From NCBI RefSeq assembly GCF_007991635.1, contig NZ_BJYS01000042.1, forward strand, positions 1-64,000: a stretch of 64,000 bases of DNA, read 5' to 3'. A program made the translations under genes and the position numbers. Origin of the DNA: Adhaeribacter aerolatus (GTDB lineage Bacteria > Bacteroidota > Bacteroidia > Cytophagales > Hymenobacteraceae). Every line of letters starts with the position of its first letter. The stretch's first letter is position 1. Shown here piece by piece: positions 4,398 to 54,517 of this stretch. The notes below the pieces were generated by a model. The model had not been told where the DNA came from, searched no databases, and saw only the letters and a list, made by a program, of their open reading frames with translations.

Positions 4398-4670
4398 GTA
4401 CTAATAATTATCTGGCAAAGATGCGCAATTTAGTTTAAGGTATTTCATCTGATCTCCGGCCGCTGGAATTCAAATTAATAAACAGTGCCGAACTGATTGA
4501 ATTGATCGGGTACTTTATTTATTCGCCAGATTTTTAAGGTAAGTAAAAGCAGCTTTCGCAATAAATTAAATTAGTGGTAGTTTTAGAAGCTGGTAACGGT
4601 TACCCTGATTATTTACCGCAGGTTAAACAATAAAGCGCCGGAATAGTTAAATAAAGATAAAAATTAGATT

Positions 4671-5123
4671 ATGTTAAAAGTTGGCGACCAAGCCCCTGAT
4701 TTTAGTTTGCAAACTGCTGCCGGCGAAGTATTCCGGTTAAGCGAAGTACTAAAAAAAAATAATGTGGTTATCTATTTTTACCCGAAAGACGATACCCGGG
4801 GCTGCACCGCGCAGGCTTGTTCGTTCCGCGACCAGTACGATGTTTTCCGGGAAAATAATGCCGAAGTGGTAGGCATCAGTTCAGATGATGTACAATCGCA
4901 CCAGCAATTTTCGGCCAAGCACCAGTTACCTTTTACCTTGCTTAGCGATGCAAAAGGCGAGGTTCGGAAACTATACCGGGTGCCCCGTACCTTTGGCATT
5001 GTGCCAGGCCGAGTTACGTACCTGATTGATAAAAAAGGAATAATCCGGTATAGCTTTAACTCGCAGTTAAAACCCCTGGAACACGTATCCGGTACCCTGG
5101 AAATTCTCAAAACATTGAATTAA
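4671..5123 (+). CDS. bcp: thioredoxin-dependent peroxiredoxin (BCP/PrxQ)
   Basis: A 150-residue cytoplasmic thiol peroxidase that reduces hydrogen peroxide and organic hydroperoxides. The active site TRGCTAQACSFRD (from about residue 42) has the peroxidatic Cys45 and the resolving Cys50 of the atypical 2-Cys PrxQ type, at the same positions as in E. coli Bcp. Length is typical. It stands alone: the divergent glycosyltransferase operon starts about 270 bases upstream, and a long non-coding stretch follows. No OxyR-like site or exact TAnnTTTG box was found upstream. Confidence 0.93.
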   Translation: MLKVGDQAPDFSLQTAAGEVFRLSEVLKKNNVVIYFYPKDDTRGCTAQACSFRDQYDVFRENNAEVVGISSDDVQSHQQFSAKHQLPFTLLSDAKGEVRKLYRVPRTFGIVPGRVTYLIDKKGIIRYSFNSQLKPLEHVSGTLEILKTLN

Positions 5124-5685: not shown

Positions 5686-6120
5686 TTAAGTAGGCATAAT
5701 GCCTTGGGTTTGTTCCCACTCCCGGTACTTGGTTAATTCTTCCTGAAAAGATTTGATAAACCAAGCCATTAAACTAATATCATCGGCGTACCCTAAAATT
5801 GGAATAAAATCCGGAATTATATCTATCGGGAACATAAAATACAGCAAGGTGGCAATACCCACGATAATTGATTTTTTTGATACATTCCGGTAATCACCCC
5901 GGAAATAACTCCGCACCAGCCGGATAAAAGAAAACATAATATCCCGGATTTGAGCAAATCCCGATTTATCGCTTTTTACATCAATTAATTTGGTATAGGA
6001 ATCGCGCAGGAGTAATATTACTTTGGCTTTTTTGCCAAATAAACTCGTCGCTTTGCGCAGGAAATAAGCAAATATTGCGTTTTGAGAAATCTTCAGACCT
6101 TGTTCTGCCAGGCTTGCCAT
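5686..6120 (-). CDS. YkvA family (DUF1232) protein
   Basis: A 144-residue protein with the diagnostic DUF1232 block near residues 96-125: LYFMFPIDIIPDFIP then GYADDI. The block forms a hydrophobic hairpin, so the protein is probably membrane associated. The N-terminal half contains basic helices around residues 20-60. The family is widespread and its biochemical role is unknown. It is divergent from the DinB-like gene, with a 95-base shared upstream region. No exact Bacteroidota promoter was found there. Confidence 0.85.
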   Translation of the reverse strand: MASLAEQGLKISQNAIFAYFLRKATSLFGKKAKVILLLRDSYTKLIDVKSDKSGFAQIRDIMFSFIRLVRSYFRGDYRNVSKKSIIVGIATLLYFMFPIDIIPDFIPILGYADDISLMAWFIKSFQEELTKYREWEQTQGIMPT

Positions 6121-52433: not shown

Positions 52434-53567
52434 TTAATTATTATACACCTTCACTATAAATACGTAGTCCTTTATCTTTTTCAGTTGCTCCGGGCGGCTG
52501 GCGCCGGCCAGGTAATTTCTTCTGGATAATTTAATTGGCGCTTCCAATGAATCCTGGGATAACTGCTCTACTAGTTGTTTCAGGTAGTCAGACTTAACGG
52601 CAAAAGAAGCGCCCTGCTGGTCTAGCTGCTGACCGCTGATGACCCCAATCAGGTTGCCTTGGCTATCGAGTAAGGGGCCGCCGCTGTTGCCCGGATTAAG
52701 CGGAATGGAAATCTGGTAAGAAGTGGTATCGCCCTCGAAACCGGTGCGGGAACTAACCGAACCTTCCCCGAAAACCATATCTTCCCGCGGAAAGCCTAAC
52801 GTATAAACCCGTTCGCCTAAATCGCTTAACTCCGATTTAAATGCATAAGGCAAAGAACCGAAAGAAGAGAAGCCTGCGTCGTCGATTTTCAGAATAGCTA
52901 AATCATGGGCCTGATCGCGGTAAATATTTTTAACCCGGTAGCGCTGCCCGGCCCGGTTTTCAATAAAAACCGAATCGGCATCTTTTACCACGTGGTAACT
53001 TGTTACCAGATAACCATCCGAACTAATGGCAAAACCAGTTCCACTGAAGTTAGCCGGCACCGGCCGGGCTGCTCTTGGATTGCTAACCCCCGAAATATCT
53101 TTGGCAATTGCCCGCTGGCTGTTTTTTATTTTCTCTACTTCGCGGCGAAGTGCGGTGTATCGGGCGTTTTGCTGTTTGCCCATCGAGCGCCACACATCAA
53201 TACTCATCAGCGTGCCGAAAACGGTTAAAATAGCTACCGAGGCTGCCACCGCGATGGTTGCATAGTGCTGGTTCCAGAATATTTTCCGTTTTTGTTTATC
53301 GCCAAAAGGAGTAATTACTTTTCTTTCGGTTAATAATGCTTCTTCCGGCACTGCTTCCATTTGCCGGTGAATGGTGTGGATCTCTTCCTTTAAAGCTTTA
53401 CGCCGGGAGTAAAAACGTAGCGTGCCGTCTATTTGCTGGTACTGGCGGTAATATTCTGCAAAATCCGGGTCGGTTTTTAAGCGCTCCTTAAATAGGGTTA
53501 GTTCCTCCGGGCTTAGTTGGTCGTTAAAATAATTTTCTATTTGCTTAAAGGCTTCTAACTCTTTCAT
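52434..53567 (-). CDS. anti-sigma-like/trypsin-like protease fusion protein
   Basis: A 377-residue protein with one membrane span. Residues 1-60 (IENYFNDQLSPEELTLFKERLKTDPDFAEYYRQ) are like the cytoplasmic N-terminus of Bacteroidota anti-sigma factors. The span is at about 101-123. A coiled linker (135-160) is followed by an extracytoplasmic trypsin/HtrA-type S1 domain with His192 (TSYHVV), Asp222 (AHDLAILKI) and Ser295 (GNSGGPL). There is no PDZ domain. It follows the ECF sigma gene by 60 bases on the same strand. I infer that the protease domain senses or processes envelope signals while the cytoplasmic part holds the sigma factor. Confidence 0.85.
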   Translation of the reverse strand: MKELEAFKQIENYFNDQLSPEELTLFKERLKTDPDFAEYYRQYQQIDGTLRFYSRRKALKEEIHTIHRQMEAVPEEALLTERKVITPFGDKQKRKIFWNQHYATIAVAASVAILTVFGTLMSIDVWRSMGKQQNARYTALRREVEKIKNSQRAIAKDISGVSNPRAARPVPANFSGTGFAISSDGYLVTSYHVVKDADSVFIENRAGQRYRVKNIYRDQAHDLAILKIDDAGFSSFGSLPYAFKSELSDLGERVYTLGFPREDMVFGEGSVSSRTGFEGDTTSYQISIPLNPGNSGGPLLDSQGNLIGVISGQQLDQQGASFAVKSDYLKQLVEQLSQDSLEAPIKLSRRNYLAGASRPEQLKKIKDYVFIVKVYNN

Positions 53568-53627
53568 ATCTGGGGTGGATATTCTTAACCAGAAGAATTA
53601 ATCCGTTTAAATTTATTTATCTTTTTT

Positions 53628-54209
53628 TTACTCGCGTTCTACTTCTGTTTTATACAAGTTAAAGAACAGTTTTTTCAGACGCAGCAGGCATTTATATTTT
53701 TGGTTTTTAGTGTTATCGGCGTTGGTATAACCAAATTTTTCGGTTATGGCCTGCATCGATAAATCCTGTATATAAAAATCTTCCAGTAACGTTTTACACG
53801 GCTCGCCTACCAGCGTTAAAGCCTCAGCCATTTTGGTAAAGGTAGCTTCCCTTTCTACCAGGTCATCTATGTCGTCGGCCACATCCACAAAAGAATCCGA
53901 CTCCGACACAGCACCGCCAAACCTGCTTTTCAGAGCCAGCCTTTTCAGCCAAAGCCGCCGGCAAACCGAATATAAATACGTTTTAATCAGGCAATTCAGT
54001 TCCAGCGATTCATCTCTTATTTTTTCAATAAAAAGAATAATCGCTTCCTGATAAATATCCTTGGCTTCGTCTTCGGTGCCATTATTACTAAGCACAAAAT
54101 GCAAAACCATGGGGTAATGTTGTTTGTAAAGATAAGCCACTGCCGTACCGTCATCTCTTCGAATTCCCGCCAGTAAAGCCTCTTCTGAAAAATAAACTAC
54201 ATTCGGCAT
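53628..54209 (-). CDS. ECF-type RNA polymerase sigma factor
   Basis: A 193-residue sigma-70 family protein. Region 2 includes DDGTAVAYLYKQHYPMVLHFVLSN and TEDEAKDIYQEAIILFIEKI; region 4 includes EPCKTLLEDFYIQDLSMQAITEKFGYTNADNTKNQKYKCL, a helix-turn-helix. Length and organisation are those of ECF sigma factors. It is co-directional with, and 60 bases upstream of, the anti-sigma-like/protease fusion gene. The pair is likely a signalling unit. No SusCD genes are adjacent, so it is not a FecI-FecR-SusC type unit. Confidence 0.9.
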   Translation of the reverse strand: MPNVVYFSEEALLAGIRRDDGTAVAYLYKQHYPMVLHFVLSNNGTEDEAKDIYQEAIILFIEKIRDESLELNCLIKTYLYSVCRRLWLKRLALKSRFGGAVSESDSFVDVADDIDDLVEREATFTKMAEALTLVGEPCKTLLEDFYIQDLSMQAITEKFGYTNADNTKNQKYKCLLRLKKLFFNLYKTEVERE

Positions 54210-54376
54210 TTAAGCTCCTCTTTTAATACCCCAGCCTGTATTTTGTAACCCATTTAAATTAAATATTTTCTTAAATAATCAGGAAGTAGCGTCATTTGGT
54301 AAAATTATAAAATCAAATTTGGGATAAGATAATTCAAAATCAAAACGAAAAAGTAGGAATGTAGCCAACGGTCCGC

Positions 54377-54431: not shown

Positions 54432-54517
54432 GCGCACGTGGTGAAACTGGTAGACACGCCATCTTGAGGGGGTGGTGCCTTACGGGTGTGGGAGTTCGAA
54501 TCTCCCCGCGCGCACCA
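54432..54517 (+). tRNA. tRNA-Leu (anticodon GAG)
   Basis: An 86-nt class II tRNA with encoded CCA. D stem GTG/CAC (54441-54443, 54455-54457), anticodon stem CCATC/GGTGG, anticodon GAG at 54466-54468 preceded by the invariant T, a long variable arm, and T arm GGGAG-TTCGAAT-CTCCC. It reads CUC/CUU leucine codons. The acceptor stem GCGCACG/CGCGCGC contains an A-C mismatch at pair 5:68 (54436 and 54509); all other pairs are canonical. A strong promoter and terminator flank it as a single-gene unit. Confidence 0.93.

Follow-up and report, generated by a model that had tools for sequence, protein, structure and literature searches.

We analyzed a window of 64,000 nucleotides from Adhaeribacter aerolatus (contig NZ_BJYS01000042.1, positions 1 to 64,000), in which two adjacent genes on the minus strand encode a sigma factor and a membrane-anchored protease. 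The upstream gene (53628..54209) encodes a 193-aa protein that matched Sigma70_r2 and the sigma70-ECF model TIGR02937, both over cut-off, and is of the ECF type, not the SigI type. After 60 nt it is followed by a gene (52434..53567) encoding a 377-aa protein, in which the open reading frame, Pfam and NCBIfam matches, an alignment, and a structure model indicated the fusion of an anti-sigma-like domain, a membrane helix, and an S1C protease. A preliminary description of this DNA had placed both reading frames at these positions and had reported one membrane span (residues 101-123) and an S1 protease without a PDZ domain, and our matches and model agreed on these points. The same description had found no SusCD or FecR-like gene. 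In the 46-62 kb segment, no listed open reading frame exceeded 859 aa, so a gene of SusC or receptor size is absent there; together with the lack of a FecR match, this led us to reject a FecR or SusCD system. At 54432-54517, upstream of the sigma gene, there is a tRNA-Leu gene (GAG); many relatives carry a divergent lipoprotein gene at this spot. The closest named relative in a GTDB genome scan was Adhaeribacter rhizoryzae (89% identical).

The AlphaFold model of the fusion protein (mean pLDDT 81.0, pTM 0.54) comprised helices at residues 3-14, 20-32, and 34-71, a long helix at residues 91-158 in which the membrane span lies, and then the protease with a C-terminal tail. The HtrA/S1C protease domain (residues 171-340; 52548..53057, minus strand, as for all features of this protein) was recognized by a Trypsin_2 match (residues 176-309, E 8.5e-28), by its catalytic triad, and by DegS fold matches. 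The triad, which had been described as intact, consists of His192 (52992-52994), Asp222 (52902-52904), and Ser295 (52683-52685); it was invariant in 38 of 38 rows and in all 77 rows of a wider alignment, in which G-x-S-G was also intact throughout (77/77). The wider alignment comprised these 38 rows and 39 others that were not exact repeats, and near-identical species may remain among them. With its S1C fold, His-Asp-Ser triad, and G-x-S-G, the domain has the defining features of the HtrA/S1C proteases, and the top fold matches of the model were DegS structures without the PDZ domain (E 2.7e-13). The PDZ domain that is usual, though not universal, in this group is absent: neither PDZ nor FecR models matched the fusion protein at E values up to 1, and the RsgI models likewise gave no match at E 1. 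The position that PDZ occupies in HtrA proteins is taken by a conserved tail (residues 341-377; 52437..52547), for which a helix (358-368) and a strand (369-375) were predicted with high confidence and in which R358 and Q361 were kept in 75 of the 77 rows.

The membrane span (residues 101-123; 53199..53267) was located by hydropathy within the long helix. It contains a conserved Val-Ala-Ala (residues 107-109; 53241..53249), a possible RseP/ClpXP signal; the RseP-cut end of Escherichia coli RseA is also Val-Ala-Ala. Ala108 and Ala109 were invariant (77/77), and residue 107 was V or I in 74 of 77 rows. A hydrophobic residue followed by Ala-Ala occurred within the span of 38/38 family members compared with 2/19 single-span open reading frames from flanking DNA (Fisher p 1.2e-12), a control that is small and rough, with mechanically derived reading frames, relatedness ignored, and a laxer hydropathy cut for the family. 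Ala-Ala was also frequent in the spans of other sigma-linked proteins of the anti-sigma type, and it may instead serve helix packing. The A. aerolatus genome encodes a homologue of the site-2 protease RseP (TIGR00054, 263 bits against a cut-off of 147.55). The invariant Ala-Ala and this homologue fit a regulated intramembrane proteolysis of the fusion protein. Between the span and the protease, the model placed a periplasmic helical linker (residues 124-158; 53094..53198), a possible site-1 region; it was only partly conserved, and no cleavage site was recognized in it.

The GTDB genome scan yielded 110 relatives of the fusion protein, and 80 loci were retained. The match extended over nearly the full length in 36 of them and mainly over the protease part in 43, and one locus (L034) matched over residues 53-376, where the contig begins within the gene. 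All 37 full or near-full relatives were from Bacteroidota according to the record titles, including Adhaeribacter, Pedobacter, Mucilaginibacter, Daejeonella, Parapedobacter, Microscillaceae, and others. A sigma homologue was present just upstream on the same strand in 36 of the 37, the exception being L034, which is cut off by the contig end; the spacing between the two genes ranged from a 32-nt overlap to a 173-nt gap. The 43 loci with mainly a protease match (L042-L084) were rejected as members and considered plain HtrA relatives, since phmmer found no sigma homologue in their flanking DNA (E 1e-3).

We further searched 150 sampled genomes of the Bacteroidota family to which the window belongs with a profile of the fusion protein. 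All 150 matched, 149 of them over nearly the whole profile; in the remaining genome (G133), the best match covered profile positions 80-363, and the gene was split into two overlapping frames. These were an anti-sigma-like frame of 123 aa and a membrane-protease frame of 275 aa overlapping by 4 nt (L220:237-1432), for which a sequencing error is possible. Among 14 family loci examined, the sigma gene was present in 14 and an unsplit fusion gene in 13. In a phylum sample of 395 genomes, 30 matched at E 1e-60 or better, one of which (G323) had the protease part only. The other 29 were the same 29 genomes whose sigma gene belongs to this subgroup, and the two genes were adjacent in 29 of 29. In two of these 29, both of family f3 (L098:2177-3184 and L108:2076-3068), the reading frame started approximately 40 profile positions late; these proteins lack the first two anti-sigma helices, yet the sigma gene is retained. 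The recurrence of the two-gene architecture in other genomes, by which the preliminary description was to be checked, was thus strongly supported (36/37 GTDB loci, 14/14 family loci, and 29/29 phylum genomes); the three sets overlap in species, and their counts are not additive. The many full-length relatives with a sigma gene ruled out an accidental fusion or a misread frame, and, judged by sequence conservation, the pair is neither a chance arrangement nor a one-off.

The anti-sigma-like domain (residues 1-80; 53328..53567) comprises three to four helices and was delimited by homology to other sigma-linked proteins, by models, and by weak fold matches. An NCBIfam anti-sigma model matched residues 11-139 below its cut-off (E 2.5e-4, 21 bits against 100). 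A comparison set was formed by 20 loci with weaker relatives of the sigma factor. At seven of these 20 loci (L119-L123, L134, and L135), the match of the next gene to the family profile was confined to the N-terminal part (positions 4-150, E 4e-5 to 2e-11), and the protease was lacking. Two of these are paralogous sigma loci of A. aerolatus itself: one sigma gene is followed by a gene for an anti-sigma-like membrane protein with TPR repeats (L119:1620-3023), and the other by a 73-aa anti-sigma-like domain alone (L120:2175-3016). TPR repeats were likewise present in the neighbor at L135. At seven further loci (L125-L129, L131, and L133), the sigma neighbor contained a Cys-x2-Cys pair; of three such neighbors searched against Pfam, two matched zf-HC2 just over the cut-off and one did not. 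One locus (L138) had a membrane neighbor that looked similar by eye only, and the remaining five (L124, L130, L132, L136, and L137) had no anti-sigma-like neighbor among the open reading frames listed.

A profile comparison between the family N-terminus (22 rows) and the seven Cys-bearing neighbors, run with no negative control, gave a probability of 97.2 and an E value of 4.4e-11 over 65 columns. A separate model of residues 1-100 contained helices at 2-14, 20-32, 34-71, and 75-81. Among its 36 fold matches, 10, including the first six, were anti-sigma domains of MucA, PupR, RsiW, and RslA; these matches were weak (E 1.2 to 8.6, none at 0.001), and the chains were identified from their titles and lengths. 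When PDB was searched with a profile of the anti-sigma domain, 57 chains were listed, none of which was named an anti-sigma factor. The fusion protein contains no zinc motif His-x3-Cys-x2-Cys, which only the zinc subset of such factors has, and gave no zf-HC2 match. These results support the homology of the N-terminus to anti-sigma-type proteins adjoining related sigma genes, and a domain common to other sigma-linked neighbors disfavors the view that it is an unrelated helix. The anti-sigma-like N-terminus of the preliminary description was supported by this homology, but its proposed extent of residues 1-60 was too short, as the domain reaches to approximately 75-80.

A promoter-like site, GGGTTAC-N15-GTATTA, precedes the sigma gene as a perfect match on the minus strand (54224..54251; boxes at 54245-54251 and 54224-54229). 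Among the 37 regions upstream of the sigma gene, the site was perfect in 29 and within two mismatches in 36, and only L032 had no such site; the boxes were spaced by 15 nt in 30 regions, by 16 in five, and by 14 in one. None of 1850 mononucleotide shuffles contained a perfect site, and approximately 2% contained one with two mismatches or fewer. The pattern was first spotted by eye in eleven upstream regions, so the later tests carry more weight. In the phylum sample, perfect sites occurred in 26 of the 29 genomes with the system, leaving three without, compared with 11 of the 366 others (Fisher p 8e-29, relatedness ignored). The system genomes contained 60 sites against 5 for the reversed control, and the other genomes 12 against approximately 41; among genomes with only weaker sigma relatives, the site was found in 3 of 47. 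As expected of promoters, the site is oriented toward the gene and lies upstream of it, by 1-17 nt from the earliest possible start of the sigma gene and by 23-48 nt from the start of the lipoprotein gene. The second box often ends approximately 4 nt before the sigma start used (e.g., L011:3380-3412), which might leave the sigma mRNA with almost no leader, or the true start may lie further in.

We examined the genes behind 71 of the 72 sites; the one omitted lies approximately 60 nt before the sigma match of genome G416. The target classes were set after the data were seen. Of the 59 sites in system genomes, 19 preceded a sigma gene, 26 a small lipoprotein gene, 6 a gene for a CBM48-like protein, and 8 something else, whereas all 12 sites in the other genomes preceded something else. 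A gene for a small lipoprotein (56-93 residues) was present on the other strand within 1.6 kb in 29 of 36 GTDB loci, and in 27 of these 29 it was preceded by the site, under a somewhat loose definition of the site. The seven loci without a nearby lipoprotein include three of the closest relatives (L005-L007). The small lipoproteins are rich in Asp, Glu, Ser, Thr, Ala, and Lys, and five of their sequences matched no Pfam family over the cut-off.

In A. aerolatus, two perfect sites were found besides that of the sigma gene, and they precede two tandem lipoprotein genes (70 and 75 aa) on contig C32 (L151:5360-5572 and 5743-5970). By eye, the genes downstream of this pair look like those of the dnaJ and cbpM types. 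A site with one mismatch precedes a third lipoprotein gene (79 aa; L152:4984-5223) on contig C13, beside which lies another lipoprotein gene (94 aa; 4506-4790). The one-mismatch search in this genome gave a result close to background, with 12 sites compared with 8 when the pattern was reversed, and we relied on the three perfect sites and the single lipoprotein-linked site on C13. In six genomes of family f5 (L156, L161, L162, L183, L184, and L185), a perfect site precedes the gene of a small protein resembling CBM48/AMPK-CBM, of 96 aa in five and 201 aa in L184; the Pfam match of one of these proteins fell just below the cut-off. Since the site before the sigma gene is enriched in system genomes and also precedes small lipoprotein genes, we predict that the regulon of the sigma factor consists of the sigma/fusion pair itself and small lipoproteins.

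The pair resembles the RpoE/RseA/DegS/RseP system in its ECF sigma factor, membrane-spanning anti-sigma factor, HtrA-type protease, and genomic RseP homologue; the sigma operon of RpoE/RseA is autoregulated, and that of the A. aerolatus pair is likely to be so. DegS, by contrast, forms a protein of its own and has a PDZ domain (PMC8103513); in the fusion protein, the protease belongs to the anti-sigma chain, with the tail in place of PDZ. The preliminary description had regarded these parts as normally kept apart, which is correct for DegS but not for RsgI9 of Clostridium thermocellum, an anti-SigI factor (PDB 7sjy) that already joins an anti-sigma N-terminus, one X-Ala-Ala membrane helix, and an extracytoplasmic S1C domain in one chain (PMC12203970). 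RsgI9 matched the fusion protein over residues 175-349 (E 1.5e-13). RsgI9 differs in being an orphan with no adjoining sigma gene and in regulating, or being presumed to regulate, a factor of the SigI type; it also has an additional NTF2-like domain, its S1C domain is described as cellulose-binding, and its anti-sigma domain is described as beta-barrel-like (PMC12203970), whereas that of the fusion protein is helical. The combination of anti-sigma factor and S1C domain within a single chain is thus already known from RsgI9; an ECF pair of this kind may be new, and its regulon is newly predicted.

Class I (ASDI) anti-sigma factors are also comparable. As in that class, the gene adjoins an ECF sigma gene and the N-terminus is a four-helix anti-sigma domain homologous by profile (with fold matches at E above 1), but the Cys-x2-Cys pair and the zf-HC2 match of the zinc-type members are both lacking. 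In a survey of class I domains, such a domain adjoins only 6% of Bacteroidetes ECF factors, and the present group may therefore have been missed there (PMC7406223). Dma1 and Dma2 of Bacteroides are likewise Bacteroidota anti-sigma factors with unusual extracytoplasmic parts and ECF partner genes; they differ in being described as extending from the outer membrane to the cytosol and as paired with ECF21, and the available text mentions no protease domain in them (PMC13088901). Neither an ECF pair with an anti-sigma/S1C fusion nor the GGGTTAC site was described in the papers listed by our literature search, which reached few subscription papers.

On the basis of these findings, we propose a self-contained, envelope-sensing proteolytic switch that combines the sigma factor, the anti-sigma/protease chain, RseP and ClpXP steps, and the GGGTTAC regulon, and we give this proposal an even chance of being correct. 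The N-terminal domain of the fusion protein would keep the sigma factor at the inner membrane. Upon a periplasmic signal, the S1C protease would cut the periplasmic linker, either in its own chain or in a neighboring copy (site 1). A second cut by RseP, within the membrane helix near Val-Ala-Ala, and removal of the anti-sigma fragment by ClpXP would follow, both by analogy with RseA and RsgI. In C. thermocellum, ClpXP is described as degrading N-terminal RsgI fragments that terminate in X-Ala-Ala inside the membrane helix (PMC12203970). The freed sigma factor would transcribe from GGGTTAC-N15-GTATTA sites, whereby transcription of its own operon would restore holder and protease and the small lipoproteins would also be induced. 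Sequence data underlie the conservation of the pair and of its upstream site, the homology to anti-sigma proteins, the intact catalytic triad, and the genes that follow the site; binding of the sigma factor, each of the cleavage steps, the signal, and the function of the lipoproteins are inferences. The invariant triad, the invariant Ala-Ala, and the RseP homologue would all be compatible with self-cleavage, whether in cis or in trans.

The protease gene could be a mere neighbor of the sigma gene, with a chance helical N-terminus that has no action on the sigma factor, and the match of the curated anti-sigma model below its cut-off would accord with this. We consider it highly improbable, as both genes occur in the same 29 of 395 genomes, the N-terminus is common to other sigma-linked proteins, and the conserved upstream site is shared. 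The N-terminal domain might instead aid the sigma factor as a positive co-regulator, in the manner of some FecR-type N-termini, and not hold it. Some N-termini of the anti-sigma type are indeed needed for sigma activity; however, the protein has no FecR domain, no receptor-sized reading frame lies nearby, and the homologous sigma neighbors are of the zf-HC2/class I type, all of which make this role improbable.

The main rival to the proteolytic switch is that the S1C domain serves as a periplasmic sensor or a working protease but leaves its own chain uncut. Through the long helix, its oligomeric state or occupancy might be relayed to the anti-sigma domain, which would release the sigma factor without proteolysis; alternatively, another protease might make the first cut. 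The linker is only partly conserved and has no recognizable cleavage site, and the A. aerolatus genome encodes three further HtrA-like proteins (L002-L004). In addition, the S1C domain of RsgI9 is described as protease-like and cellulose-binding, and the available text places RsgI autocleavage in a separate PD domain (PMC12203970). Nevertheless, if the domain served only in binding, loss of its triad would be expected in some lineages, whereas triad and G-x-S-G were intact in all rows, and the invariant Ala-Ala in the span fits membrane proteolysis. We regard this rival as a serious but somewhat doubtful explanation. The proteolytic switch might also be extended: the fusion protein may be anti-sigma factor, site-1 protease, and substrate in one chain, and the protease may take the induced lipoproteins as its ligands or substrates. 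The switch would thereby read lipoprotein load or trafficking and close a feedback loop. This extension is speculative, and we think it rather unlikely.

A fused site-1 protease, if true, would remove the usual doubt over which protease cuts the anti-sigma factor, and a single active-site mutation would then suffice to test for self-cleavage, in cis or in trans. A ready reporter, and a way into the function of the pair, are provided by the promoter and the lipoprotein targets predicted here. The fusion was found in all 150 sampled genomes of one Bacteroidota family and in several other families of the phylum, and the pair looks like a core envelope regulator there.
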